Assembly (NCBI GenBank): GCA_958295975.1
Contig: OY282446.1
Location: 124,001-188,000 of the forward strand
Direction: 5' to 3'
Source: Tepidiformaceae bacterium
Lineage (GTDB): Bacteria > Chloroflexota > Dehalococcoidia > Tepidiformales > Tepidiformaceae
Length of the DNA stretch: 64,000 bases
A model generated the notes under the pieces. It was not told the origin of the DNA. It saw nothing but the letters and a program-made list of their open reading frames with translations, and did not search any database. Shown here in pieces: positions 10,501-23,888 of the stretch (the stretch's first letter is position 1; each line of letters opens with the position of its first letter). The translations under genes and the position numbers were made by a program.

Positions 10501-10859
10501 GCATCGCGGCGCTGGGCGTGATCGCCTTCCGCGCCGTGGTGGAGCGCCGCCAGCAGATCGGCATGTTGCGCGCCATCGGCTACCAGCGCTCCATGGTGGC
10601 GCTCAGCTTCCTCTTCGAATCCGGCTTCGTGGCCCTCTCCGGCATCGTCATGGGGCTGGTCATGGGCGTCTCCTTCGCGTGGGTGCTGTTCGCCTCGGGC
10701 ACGATGGGCGAGGCGGCGGCGGACGCGGGCTTCACCGTGCCCTGGGCGCAGCTGGCCATCATCTGCGGCATCGCCTTCGCCTCCTCCATGGTCATGACCT
10801 GGTTCCCCTCGCGCGCCGCCGCGGGCGTGGCCGTGGCCGAGGCCCTGCGCTACGAATGA
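7518..10859 (+). CDS. large FtsX-like ABC permease with two FtsX domains
   Basis: The 1113-residue membrane protein has an N-terminal helix (about residues 9-30), a second helix at 53-74 leading to a large extracytoplasmic domain, then a FtsX block (about 315-440: three helices ending near RASRLNIVAAIRD). A middle region of roughly eight hydrophobic helices (460-700) follows. A second MacB-like unit comes next: helix near 710, soluble domain about 745-960, and FtsX helices at 985-1110 with MLRAIGYQRSMVALSF and the ending AVAEALRYE. It therefore contains both halves of the usual permease dimer in one chain plus an extra membrane block. It pairs with the upstream ATPase. Cargo is unknown; lipoprotein, peptide or antibiotic extrusion are all possible for this family. 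Confidence 0.88.
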   Translation: MEDLFGIPMSTIAAVCVAITVLILVLIGVLAVRNPVMFKTGLRNIPRRRTQTALIVFGLMLATVIMTASFGTGDTVVNSVTDDVYELMGETDLTVSWDAERFPRPTAERLLPLAEADALREEFAGDPDIDGFLAVIGEALPVVSLDTQLNESGAVILGYDPAEAEPFGLLRDVDGRPIQLAGNQIAVNEDLAEELDAEPGHRLLLLYGGTPIEVEVAAIAPNSFISGAFAITAGDAPGGAMHIDALGEALGLEGFATDIFVSTTGGVRSGLDSSDAAEGELERYLADAGKPYAVSAVKKDAIDGARTAGSTFTSLFVIFGTFSIAAGVLLIFLIFIMLAAERKPEMGMARAVGARRRHLVESFLAEGMGYDLGAALVGLGAGIGVTYAMIALLNSLGFGLDLRVSFTIRSLIVSFCLGVIATFLVIFLAALRASRLNIVAAIRDLPETPPRNPEDATWRGYARSVLSAAVAAGYVIVCLLAIVRLPEARWLFTLGLIFGLVGPWIFVLRGREGRGLPRWPFALVPLIPFYLVALLIVRFARNRMANPGLPLMVLGILLPPLGLALVAGQPRERAVSWSAGYAVTGLGLAALLLEWTFASDRAVYFLLGVSLIFFWVALTLRYFHVHERLTFTVVAALLLLFWYAFPTDIFNFLTGELDTNIEIFFVSGLVMVTAGTFLIVSNADILLPAVAAAGSRLGRIVPAIKTAVAYPLTARMRTGMTIMMIGLISFSLINFSTVNANFASLFLSDDARGGFSTQVAVNGNNPIADFPALLEERGVDSSPIETAAEVRIAGANETEISDPAAPGEFRTSAVFGGDRAFLETIEMEFTIRGAGYDSDEAVWRALADEPRLAVIPASLTQGTGPFDPQGDEALRLEPLADGFQPFALTFRDPGTERETVVTVIAQLDDVADTFWPAILVRRDTLLAAFPDTSGQLFYLRTADGTDQDAFAKSIEAGLVQASAESLDQLLDDQRGATTGFLRLFQGFMGLGLIVGIAALGVIAFRAVVERRQQIGMLRAIGYQRSMVALSFLFESGFVALSGIVMGLVMGVSFAWVLFASGTMGEAAADAGFTVPWAQLAIICGIAFASSMVMTWFPSRAAAGVAVAEALRYE

Positions 10860-20703: not shown

Positions 20704-21249
20704 GTGGCGGCGGAGCGCCCGCGCCGCGTCCCCGTCGACCGCGAGGCCGCGCGGCCCGCCGCGGACGCGGACTCGTGCGACTGCCCGCGGCTGGACCGCG
20801 ACGAGTGGCACGAGGTGGAGAGCGACTGGGGCGACATCGCCTTCGCGCGCGTGGCCATGCCCGCGCTCTTCGGCGTGCCCCTGCGCTTCTGGCGGCAACG
20901 GCGCGGCCTGATCGAGCGCGCGGAGGCGGCGGGCGCCGTGCCCGAGGACGCCATGCTGCTGCTGGGGCCGGGGCGGCTGCGGCGCACGGCCATGCTGGAG
21001 GTGGAGGACGCCGACCGCTCGGCGCGCGGCATCGTCGTGCCCGGCGGCGTCGCCTGGACGCGCCTGCTGCCCGCGCCCTGGGGCCGCATGCGCGCCCTCA
21101 TGGGGGAGACGAAGCGGCTCGCGCGCGAACGCTACGGGCGCAACCCCGACACCGTCTGGGTGTGGTACCTCACCTGCCGCGTCTGCTCCGCCGCCCGCGA
21201 ATTCGAGACGCTCTTCGTGGCGCACTACCGGCGGCGTCCGGCGGGATGA
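20704..21249 (+). CDS. conserved-looking hypothetical protein with N-terminal CDC motif
   Basis: The 181-residue protein has SCDCPRLDRDEWHEVESDWGDIAF near residue 24, a hydrophobic central segment AMPALFGVPLRFWRQRRGL, and a C-terminal part rich in aromatic residues (DTVWVWYLTCRVCSAAREFETLF). The CxC near the start and the CRVC near the end could bind a metal together. Starting at GTG 20704, it follows the previous gene after eight bases. I do not recognise a characterised family, and a hydrolase or iron-binding role would be a guess. Confidence 0.6.
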   Translation: MAAERPRRVPVDREAARPAADADSCDCPRLDRDEWHEVESDWGDIAFARVAMPALFGVPLRFWRQRRGLIERAEAAGAVPEDAMLLLGPGRLRRTAMLEVEDADRSARGIVVPGGVAWTRLLPAPWGRMRALMGETKRLARERYGRNPDTVWVWYLTCRVCSAAREFETLFVAHYRRRPAG

Positions 21250-21268: not shown

Positions 21269-21274
21269 TACGAT
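21269..21274 (+). promoter_or_regulatory. -10 box of the leuS leader
   Basis: TACGAT is followed by seven bases and the ATG of the leader peptide at 21282, the same leaderless-type spacing as elsewhere in the window. Confidence 0.5.
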
Positions 21275-21281
21275 CGGGGCG

Positions 21282-21356
21282 ATGACGACGATGACACCGG
21301 AACGACCGGCGCAGACGGGCGCGTTGCTCGCCCTTCCGCGGCCTCGCGGCGCATAG
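21282..21356 (+). CDS. leuS leader peptide
   Basis: A 24-codon frame (MTTMTPERPAQTGALLALPR, then PRGA) lies between the leuS promoter and leuS. It contains three leucines in four codons near its end: TTG, CTC, GCC, CTT at 21324-21335. TTG and CTT are rare leucine codons in DNA this GC-rich. Its stop codon TAG (21354-21356) falls within a strong hairpin. Position, leucine clustering and overlap with the hairpin are those of a ribosome-mediated attenuation leader that senses charged tRNA-Leu. The call is an inference from sequence; no homologue comparison was possible. Confidence 0.6.
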   Translation: MTTMTPERPAQTGALLALPRPRGA

Positions 21357-21369
21357 CCGGCGAGGCCGT
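21338..21369 (+). promoter_or_regulatory. leuS leader hairpin 1
   Basis: A perfect nine-base inverted repeat, CGGCCTCGC at 21339-21347 and GCGAGGCCG at 21360-21368, begins four bases after the last leucine codon of the leader peptide. An inner GGC/GCC pairing surrounds the stop codon. A ribosome waiting on the leucine codons would cover the 5' arm. A pyrimidine run (TCCCTCCTTCCCC) follows, with no T-run, so it is not a textbook intrinsic terminator. Confidence 0.6.
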
Positions 21370-21387
21370 CCCTCCTTCCCCACGCCC

Positions 21388-21446
21388 GTTCCCCGGCGGC
21401 GGCGCGCCCGCGCGCGCGGGGAACCCGCAGCAGCGAGGAGTTCCCC
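21388..21446 (+). promoter_or_regulatory. leuS leader alternative hairpins over the ribosome-binding site
   Basis: GGGGAAC at 21418-21424 can pair upstream with GTTCCCC at 21388-21394 (extended to eight pairs with the flanking G-C) or downstream with GTTCCCC at 21440-21446, directly before the leuS ATG and overlapping the last base of the GAGGAG site at 21435-21440. The two pairings exclude each other, which gives a ready on/off switch for leuS translation. This is seen in sequence; the switching itself is inference. Confidence 0.55.
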
Positions 21447-23888
21447 ATGCCCGATCGTTACAACCCGCACGCCATCGAGCCGAAATGGCGGGAGCGCTGG
21501 CGGGCGGATGGCATCGACCGCGCCCGCGACGACGACGAGCGGCCCGCCTGGTACGCGCTCACCATGTTCCCCTACCCCTCGGGGGACCTGCACACGGGCC
21601 ACTGGTACGCCATGGCCCCCAGCGACGCCGCCGCCCGCTTCCAGCGCATGCGGGGCCGCAACGTGCTCTTTCCCATCGGCTTCGACGCCTTCGGGCTGCC
21701 CGCGGAGAACGCCGCCATCCGCCACGGCGAGGACCCTGGGAGCTGGACGCACGGGAACATCGAGCGCATGCGCGAACAGCTGCGCACGATGGGCGCGAGC
21801 TTCGACTGGGAGCGCGAAATCGTCACCTGCGACCCCGACTACTACCGCTGGACGCAGTGGTGGTTCCTGAAGCTGCACGAGCGGGGGCTGGCCTACCGCG
21901 CCGAAGCCGCCGCCAACTGGTGCCCCGGCTGCCGCACCGTGCTGGCCAACGAGCAGGTGCTGGACGGGCGCTGCGAGCGCTCCGACGACGCCGTGGAGCG
22001 CCGCTTCCTCACGCAGTGGTTCTTCCGCATCACCGCCTACGCCGGGGAGCTGCTCGATTTCAGCGGGCTGGACTGGCCGGAGCGCGTCATGGCCATGCAG
22101 CGCAACTGGATCGGGCGCTCCGAGGGCGCGAACCTGCGCTTCCCCGTCGACGTCGCGGGCGTGGACGAGCCGCTCACCGTCTTCACCACGCGCCCCGACA
22201 CCGTGTACGGGGCCACCTTCATGGCGCTCGCGCCCGAACACCCGCTGGTGGCGCGCATCGTCACGGAGGCGCAGCGCGCGGCGGTGGACGCCTGCGTGGC
22301 GGCCACGGCGCGCACGCCGGAGGTCGAGCGCCTCGCCGCCGGGCGCGCGCGCACGGGCGCGTTCACGGGCGCGTACGCGATCAACCCCTTCACGGGCGCG
22401 CGCATCCCCGTCTGGATCGCGGACTACGTGCTGGCGACCTACGGCACGGGCGCGATCATGGCCGTGCCCGCGCACGACGAGCGCGATTTCGCCTTCGCCC
22501 GCGCGCACGGCCTCGACGTGGTCCCCGTCCTCGACCACGAAAGCATCGACACGGACGCGCCCCTGGCGGCGGCCTTCACCGAGGGTCGCGCCATGATCAA
22601 CTCCGGGCCCTTCGACGGCACGCCCGCGGGCGAGGCCTTCGACGCCGTCGTCGCCCACGCCGAGGCCGGGGGCATGGGCGAGCGCGCCGTCACCCATCGC
22701 CTGCGCGACTGGCTCATCTCGCGCCAGCGCTACTGGGGCGCGCCCATCCCCATGGTCCACTGCGACGCCTGCGGCATCGTGCCCGTGCCGGAGTCCGACC
22801 TGCCCGTGCTCCTGCCGGAGGGCGCGCGCTTCGAGCCGACAGGCCAGTCGCCCCTCACGCAGATCGCGGAGTGGGTGAACGTGGCCTGCCCCGACTGCGG
22901 GGGGGAGGCGCGGCGCGAGACGGACACGCTCGACACCTTCATGTGCTCGAGCTGGTACCAGATGCGCTACATCGACCCACGCAACGCGGAGCGCCCCTTT
23001 TCGCCCGAAGCGGCGCGGCGCTGGCTGCCCGTGGACCTCTACACGGGCGGCGCGGAGCACGCCGTCATGCACCTGCTCTACACGCGCTTCTTCTGGAAGG
23101 CGGCGCGCGACGCGGGCATCGTGGAGGGCGACGAGCCCATGAAGCGGCTCTTCAACCAGGGCGTGATCGTGGGCCCCGACGGCAACCGCATGTCCAAGAG
23201 CCGCGGCAACGTGGTCGCGCCCGACGAGCAGGTGGAGCGGCACGGGGCGGACGCCTTCCGCTGCCAGCTGATGTTCATCGGCCCGTGGGACCAGGGCGGC
23301 CCCTACAACCCCGGCGGCATGCCCGGCATCGTGCGCTGGCTCAACCGCCTCTGGTCCGTGGCCACGGGACCGCCGCCCGAGGGCGCGCCCGACGCGGAGG
23401 CCGCGCGCGCCCTGGGGGCCGCCGCCCAGCGCGCCATCCGCGACGTGACCGCCGACGTCGAGGATTTCCGCTTCAACACCGCCATCGCGCGGCTCATGGA
23501 GTTCACGACCGCCCTGGCGCGCGCGGGGGAGAGCGGCGGCGTGGGGCGCGACGATTGGGAACGCGCCGCGGAGACGCTCATCCTGCTGACGGCCCCCTTC
23601 GCGCCGCACGTCGCCGAGGAGCTGTGGGAGCGCCGCGGCAAGCCCTACAGCGTGCACCGGCAGGCGTGGCCCGCGCTCGACGAGTCGCTCGCCGAGCGGG
23701 AGACGGTGGAGATCGCCGTGCAGGTGAACGGCAGGGTGCGCGACCGGCTGACGCTCCCCGCCGGGGCGGGCGAGGAGGAGGCGCTGGCGCTGGCGCTGGC
23801 CAGCGCGCGCGTGCGGGGCCATGTGGGGGACGGGGCGCCGCGCCGCGTCGTCTACGTGCCCGGCAAGCTCCTCAACATCGTCGCCTGA
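21447..23888 (+). CDS. leuS: leucine-tRNA ligase
   Basis: An 813-residue class Ia synthetase. The HIGH motif is HTGH in MFPYPSGDLHTGHWYAM (about residues 49-52), the CP1 editing domain spans roughly 220-410 with TTRPDTVYGATFM and GTGAIMAVPAHDERD, and the KMSKS loop is RMSKSRGN (about 581-588). The zinc-ribbon insertion CPGCRTVLANEQV is present. The ATG at 21447 follows GAGGAG by six bases. The preceding leader suggests control by leucyl-tRNA supply. Confidence 0.97.
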   Translation: MPDRYNPHAIEPKWRERWRADGIDRARDDDERPAWYALTMFPYPSGDLHTGHWYAMAPSDAAARFQRMRGRNVLFPIGFDAFGLPAENAAIRHGEDPGSWTHGNIERMREQLRTMGASFDWEREIVTCDPDYYRWTQWWFLKLHERGLAYRAEAAANWCPGCRTVLANEQVLDGRCERSDDAVERRFLTQWFFRITAYAGELLDFSGLDWPERVMAMQRNWIGRSEGANLRFPVDVAGVDEPLTVFTTRPDTVYGATFMALAPEHPLVARIVTEAQRAAVDACVAATARTPEVERLAAGRARTGAFTGAYAINPFTGARIPVWIADYVLATYGTGAIMAVPAHDERDFAFARAHGLDVVPVLDHESIDTDAPLAAAFTEGRAMINSGPFDGTPAGEAFDAVVAHAEAGGMGERAVTHRLRDWLISRQRYWGAPIPMVHCDACGIVPVPESDLPVLLPEGARFEPTGQSPLTQIAEWVNVACPDCGGEARRETDTLDTFMCSSWYQMRYIDPRNAERPFSPEAARRWLPVDLYTGGAEHAVMHLLYTRFFWKAARDAGIVEGDEPMKRLFNQGVIVGPDGNRMSKSRGNVVAPDEQVERHGADAFRCQLMFIGPWDQGGPYNPGGMPGIVRWLNRLWSVATGPPPEGAPDAEAARALGAAAQRAIRDVTADVEDFRFNTAIARLMEFTTALARAGESGGVGRDDWERAAETLILLTAPFAPHVAEELWERRGKPYSVHRQAWPALDESLAERETVEIAVQVNGRVRDRLTLPAGAGEEEALALALASARVRGHVGDGAPRRVVYVPGKLLNIVA

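Follow-up and report, generated by a model that had tools for sequence, protein, structure and literature searches.

A conserved leucine-codon leader with a stop-enclosing hairpin is a probable ribosome-dependent control element of leuS in Tepidiformales

The leucyl-tRNA synthetase gene, leuS, in the window (the whole stretch of 64,000 nucleotides that was analyzed) is preceded by a short reading frame that includes leucine codons and by a hairpin that encloses its stop codon. This arrangement raises the question of whether leuS is controlled by leucine through translation of a leader peptide and, if so, how a ribosome located on the leader would act on the gene. The original prediction proposed a ribosome-mediated attenuator with a bistable switch over the ribosome-binding site (RBS). 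All the features that it named are present in the sequence, as determined by direct reading and a re-check by script. The features of the locus are the following:

21269 to 21274, plus strand: predicted -10-like promoter element (TACGAT) for transcription of the leader
21282 to 21356, plus strand: leader reading frame of 24 codons, MTTMTPERPAQTGALLALPRPRGA and stop, probably leaderless (ATG at 21282-21284, TAG at 21354-21356)
21324 to 21335, plus strand: TTG CTC GCC CTT within the leader reading frame, by direct reading
21327 to 21335, plus strand: putative regulatory leucine codons CTC-GCC-CTT; the CTT at 21333-21335 is invariant in the family alignment
21336 to 21340, plus strand: five-base interval that separates CTT from the first invariant pair of hairpin P1, from the alignment
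21339 to 21368, plus strand: hairpin P1, with 9 perfect pairs, a bulged G, 3 further pairs and a 5-nt loop
21388 to 21424, plus strand: possible second hairpin, GTTCCCC...GGGGAAC, from the sequence; not conserved
21432 to 21439, plus strand: leuS RBS, GCGAGGAG, from the sequence
21447 to 23888, plus strand: leuS, leucyl-tRNA synthetase of 813 aa, the proposed regulated gene (Pfam PF13603, PF00133, PF09334, PF08264)

The TACGAT element is separated from the ATG by 7 nt. P1 consists of a perfect inverted repeat of nine bases (CGGCCTCGC, 21339-21347, and GCGAGGCCG, 21360-21368) that encloses the stop codon, and an inner extension, GGC/GCC, with one bulged G (21359); the TAG spans the loop and the upper stem. 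In this species the stem extends two pairs into the five-base interval (21339-21340). The combination of an in-frame CTN-NNN-CTT, five further nucleotides and a stem of 8 bp or more that holds the in-frame stop has a single instance in the window, at the leuS leader, and was not found in 20 dinucleotide shuffles. Another CTN-NNN-CTT with five nucleotides and a 13-bp stem is located at 10607 (plus strand), within a long reading frame resembling an FtsX-type permease; it was taken as background. The overall fold stability of the leader is not unusual (z -0.44); the signal resides in conservation. An Rfam scan of the window detected tRNAs only, leaving the leader unmatched. The gene located 5′ of the leader (20704-21249) codes for a 181-aa protein with a match to Pfam PF20603.

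The leuS upstream regions of 36 genomes of the window's family (Chloroflexota, Tepidiformales), which is the sole representative of its order in the genome set compared, were searched for a hairpin enclosing a stop codon, a criterion free of codons; five cases were placed by hand on the basis of the same hairpin motif. The element precedes leuS in 33 of the 36 loci, a count that ignores kinship and includes many metagenome-assembled genomes (MAGs). A diverged version is present in L012 and the element is missing from L019 and L035, indicating that it is not essential. In L019 and L035, too, leuS is directly preceded by the C-terminal end of a protein similar to the PF20603 one of the window. 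The typical element has a short, usually leaderless reading frame, CTC-NNN-CTT, five bases, and a hairpin of 10-11 bp with the stop codon in the loop. In the alignment, CTT is found in 33 of 33 members, CTC precedes it by two codons in most, and the codon between them is free. The stop codon comes seven codons after CTT in all 32 members that could be read. P1 has 11 pairs in the alignment, with 96.4% of the cells paired and two-sided changes at three pairs (C-G to U-A or the reverse in 8 sequences, C-G to G-C or the reverse in 2, and the outer pair in 12 cells). The leader peptide varies together with the stem (RPRGA, RPGGA, GPRSA, RPRDG). It is thus the RNA pairing and the codons, rather than the peptide, that are preserved. 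Both the conserved leucine codons and the covarying stem that the original prediction expected in relatives were therefore found. An exact pattern scan of the genomes of 84,980 species produced 25 matches, all assigned to the window's family; where contigs bearing the element are named, they belong to MAGs of Dehalococcoidia or Chloroflexi, including one Tepidiforma. A family-derived model scanned against 393 genomes of the class gave one match per genome plus two weak matches outside the family. One of these precedes leuA; the other, in G159, adjoins neither leuS nor leuA and was set aside.

The start of the leader was also compared. For 22 of the 33 family members, a TANNNT sequence is located 6-10 nt before an in-frame start of the leader, as opposed to 1-2 members for the two other phases. 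In a sister family (f2), (T/G/C)ATACT precedes the in-frame leader start in 15 of 20 cases and is found in none for the other phases. This phase-specific -10-like element supports the near-leaderless start originally proposed for the leader peptide. Such a setting had been described as uncommon for attenuation; nonetheless, there is a precedent in the cysteine attenuators of mycobacteria, according to the text that cites them (Canestrari et al. 2020, cited in PMC9094748). In two element-free loci of the sister family, L167 and L169, only a few bases separate a TACGAT box from the start codon of leuS, so that leuS itself looks leaderless.

The leucine codons in five genes of the window were counted as CTG 105, CTC 96, CTT 5, CTA 3 and TTG/TTA 0. 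By these counts CTC is a common codon, unlike the rare CTT and TTG. CTT, invariant at the leader position (33/33), represents 5 of the 209 leucine codons (about 2%) in the five genes. Two leucine codons of the leader had been singled out as rare; CTT is both rare and conserved, but TTG, although rare, is confined to the leader of this species. Among the genome's long tRNAs, ARAGORN identified one tRNA-Leu each with the anticodons GAG, CAG, CAA, TAG and TAA. By the usual wobble rules, tRNA-Leu(GAG) reads CTC as well as CTT. The presence of CTT instead of the common CTG or CTC makes isoacceptor-specific sensing directly testable.

The sister-family leuS leaders have the arrangement CTC-NNN-CTT-ANN-TAG, with the stop codon at the base of the hairpin and the first pair again 5 nt past CTT. 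Twenty of these leaders were picked by a pattern that included CTT, the spacing and the first four stem bases, and counts obtained from them are partly by construction. A model identified two more, L179, in which CTT is kept, and L160, with CTC at the CTT position. The sister-family and ilvB sets were all found with CTT-containing patterns or models, whereas the set from the window's own family was not. The sister-family leuS stem covaries, with two-sided changes at five pairs. In L103, L165 and L171 the early TAG is lost and the frame remains open up to an in-frame stop codon in the hairpin loop, the same stop arrangement as in the window's family. The comparisons within the family and with the sister family support the proposal that a leader peptide containing leucine codons, next to a hairpin, is encoded upstream of leuS.

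The model derived from the sister-family leuS leaders exposed a second site in many genomes of that family, upstream of ilvB (acetolactate synthase). Nearly all of these leaders end in CTC GTA CTC GTA CTT ANN TAG (LVLVLT and stop) with the same spacing, and the exceptions still terminate in Leu-Val-Leu. Three model matches, L305-L307, were set aside as they do not have the CTC-NNN-CTT codons. Leucine codons followed 4-5 nt later by a hairpin were also found upstream of leuA in families f14, f16, f17 and f34 (L128, L130, L131, L202), of one sister-family leuA (L212) and of ilvB in f17 (L332). As read from these leaders, the codons track the function of the downstream gene, Leu for leuS and Leu-Val for ilvB, which in our view is the strongest argument for amino-acid sensing. 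It also bears on the idea that a protein, such as LeuRS in an autoregulatory role or another regulator, binds P1 and that the reading frame is incidental. The strong conservation of the P1 sequence in the window's family would agree with a protein site. However, between families the loop and stem sequences vary freely while the codon position, the spacing and the stop placement persist, and codons matched to gene function are unexpected of such a site. We consider protein binding very unlikely.

The ilvB and leuA genes of the window's family have leaders of other types. The ilvB leader (L328:3166-3344, minus strand), located upstream of ilvB (G000:C1:769756-771411), was aligned with 16 relatives (alignment A3). 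It is an RNA of 150-180 nt with covarying stems and the invariant stretches CGGCTTACCGGCC and GCCACGACCG..GGCGTGGC. Six loci of this type had no match in Rfam, even at E 0.5, and on its sequence this leader is a candidate for a new riboswitch-like element. The leuA genes (L132, L134-L149, L152; L148 in the window genome) have their own conserved short reading frame, with an end close to APDSPGRxL, that contains the inverted repeat CGCCCCGG-ACTCA-CCGGGGCG. A leucine codon, often CTT or CTC, is found a few bases past this hairpin, sometimes just before the stop codon.

The location of P1 with respect to the ribosome was assessed with CTT placed in the A site and the first P-site base numbered +1. 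The first invariant pair is at +12, where 33 of 33 family members are paired, and an outer pair at +11 is present in 26 of 33. The sister family has the +12 pair in 20 of 20 leaders, a count that is partly by construction, and the +11 pair in 2 of 20. In the window leader the stem reaches two bases further out than +12. In vitro, binding of tRNA to the A site is hindered by stem-loops whose first pair is at +12 or +13 (PMC7282821, PMC8861025). The frameshift-stimulating stem-loops of dnaX and HIV analyzed in those studies resemble P1 in that the first pair is +12 from the P-site codon and the stem-loop is short and GC-rich. Unlike them, the leader has no slippery site or frameshift product, and the codon in the A site is a putative regulatory leucine codon. 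The spacing between CTT and P1, which is that of known frameshift stimulators, could also be read as a sign of programmed frameshifting at CTT, with P1 as the stimulator and a longer product or coupling to leuS as the outcome. Nevertheless, the phase of leuS with respect to the leader reading frame is random (14/12/7 and 6/6/8 for the three phases in the two families) and no slippery sequence is conserved, and frameshifting is considered extremely improbable. The minimal inference is that P1, beginning at +12 as long as CTT occupies the A site, would be intact until CTT is decoded and would be opened by the next step. By analogy with the stem-loops assayed in vitro, P1 might also be a built-in competitor of tRNA-Leu(GAG) for the A site, making the leader a tunable one-codon sensor of charged tRNA, an idea that we regard as rather doubtful. 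If true, A-site competition would be a general principle of leaders in this Chloroflexota class, for leuS, leuA and ilvB. The fixed distance between codon and hairpin leads to a precise prediction on the competition between mRNA hairpins and tRNA in the ribosome.

The anatomy of the predicted element, its conservation, its leaderless context and its gene-matched codons were documented by comparison between genomes, and control of leuS by leucine through the leader peptide is considered very likely. From these comparisons we infer the leucine response and its sign, the stalling and the output step. The leuS transcript would begin at or beside the ATG of the short reading frame, and a ribosome would translate the leader up to CTC-NNN-CTT, read by the single tRNA-Leu(GAG). 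P1 would stay intact during the wait for charged tRNA-Leu at CTT and would be opened once this codon is decoded; its position may also slow the entry of tRNA-Leu, sharpening the sensor. The position of the stop codon, within P1 or at its base, would make the ribosome terminate while on the hairpin, and P1 would in this way report the decoding of a single leucine codon. Under scarcity of charged tRNA-Leu, the ribosome parked at CTT would increase leuS expression. A probability of about 0.6 is assigned to this full mechanism, in which the element is a leucine-responsive, ribosome-dependent leader of leuS.

The output step was approached through the pairing potential of the leader. In the window, CTCGC (21327-21331), within the leucine codons, is complementary to GCGAG (21432-21436) in the leuS RBS. 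Complementarity between the leucine run and the RBS was also seen in L130 (10 bp), L173 and L174 (8 bp), and L178, L180 and L182 (7-8 bp). Permutation of the RBS regions among 40-42 representatives across families resulted in p 0.0004-0.003, compared with p 0.02-0.25 for controls, in a test designed after seeing examples and with one control comparison at p 0.02. Permutation within families gave p 0.23 and 0.085, and p 0.36 and 0.046 with representatives, which was judged not significant; the value for the window's family with representatives is p 0.36. The likeliest output for leuS, held tentatively and at less than even odds, is that the parked ribosome covers leucine codons that could otherwise pair with the leuS RBS.

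Another possible output, held with somewhat less conviction, is that the parked ribosome prevents premature termination, either Rho-dependent or at a weak terminator. The sensor would be the same; departure of the ribosome would expose the leader RNA, and a ribosome at CTT would keep RNA polymerase going. In 10 of 16 sister-family ilvB leaders, a hairpin with a T-rich tail is located directly after P1, which suggests that the sensor acts on transcription in these leaders. In the window's family, the spacer before leuS is rich in C and poor in G, with a C/G ratio of 1.72 as compared to 1.22 upstream, a composition often seen in RNA that binds Rho. On the other hand, the C/G bias of the sister family is not confined to the spacer, and no conserved alternative pairing that could oppose termination was found. 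Terminator-like hairpins are rare in leuS leaders, 4 of 33 in the window's family and 1 of 20 in the sister family as against the 10 of 16 for ilvB, and no intrinsic terminator was found between the leader reading frame and leuS in the window. Release of the RBS and prevention of premature termination are regarded as near-equal options for leuS, since the RBS pairing within the family is not significant and the test was built after examples had been seen.

A third possibility was the switch of the original prediction, in which mutually exclusive hairpins would form by pairing of GGGGAAC (21418-21424) either with an upstream segment or over the leuS RBS. All three segments are present, and their complementarity is perfect; GTTCCCC is found at 21388-21394 and at 21440-21446, the latter directly abutting the leuS ATG (21447). 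The mechanism was nevertheless rejected. The segments are not conserved even within the genus: a complement to the bases that precede the ATG is absent from the leaders of all seven congeners compared, and it was found in 2 of 33 family leaders, including that of the window. The spacer folded no more strongly than shuffles, and the modelled accessibility of the RBS was the same whether the ribosome was left out, placed at CTT or placed at the stop codon. A switch of this kind is most improbable. Pairing of the P1 arms with downstream leader RNA was also no better than in shuffles (z near 0).

The closest classical parallels to the leucine-responsive leader proposed here are the trp, leu and ilv leaders of E. 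coli, in which control codons lie near the first hairpin and the stop codon lies in its loop. The likeness consists of control codons next to a stop-bearing hairpin and of Leu-Val codons before sister-family ilvB. Unlike in E. coli, no 2:3/3:4 switch was found for leuS: among trp-type features, intrinsic terminators are mostly absent from the leuS leaders and mutually exclusive hairpins were not found. T-box elements (Rfam RF00230) had no match in the window or in L004. Elsewhere in the class, RF00230 was matched at L126 (leuS), and the sequence suggests T-boxes at L105, L107 and L120 (leuS) and L322 (ilvB). As leuS or ilvB of other families is apparently under T-box control, RNA solutions seem to have been exchanged within the class.

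The leuS attenuators of Streptomyces, with antiterminator and terminator hairpins and poly-U (Seliverstov et al. 2005, PMC1262725), share with the leaders described here a peptide, encoded upstream of leuS, that contains leucine codons. They differ in that most leaders here have no intrinsic terminator and no alternative hairpin, the stop codon lies inside a single conserved hairpin, and the distance from CTT to the stem is fixed. The LEU element described in the same study is a pseudoknot upstream of actinobacterial leuA, with a run of leucine codons proposed to pair with the RBS of the next gene; mutation of the leucine codons in Streptomyces had no effect, as stated there (PMC1262725). A similar complementarity between leucine run and RBS exists here, significant across families and not within the window's family. 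The pseudoknot was not found, the two leuS alignments having only one conserved stem, and the gene is leuS instead of leuA. The polycysteine attenuators of mycobacteria, as presented in the citing text, use a leaderless short reading frame with codons for the sensed amino acid (Canestrari et al. 2020, cited in PMC9094748). At the level of the reading frame, the leaderless setting is common to both systems; the amino acid and the phylum differ. No described case of leuS or ilvB leader peptides in Chloroflexi was found in the open-access literature searched. With cognate codons and a conserved adjacent structure, the element fits, as judged from its sequence, ribosome-mediated leader attenuation in the broad sense, and it would add to the known systems a conserved leucine sensor, absent from Rfam, that serves leuS, leuA and ilvB.
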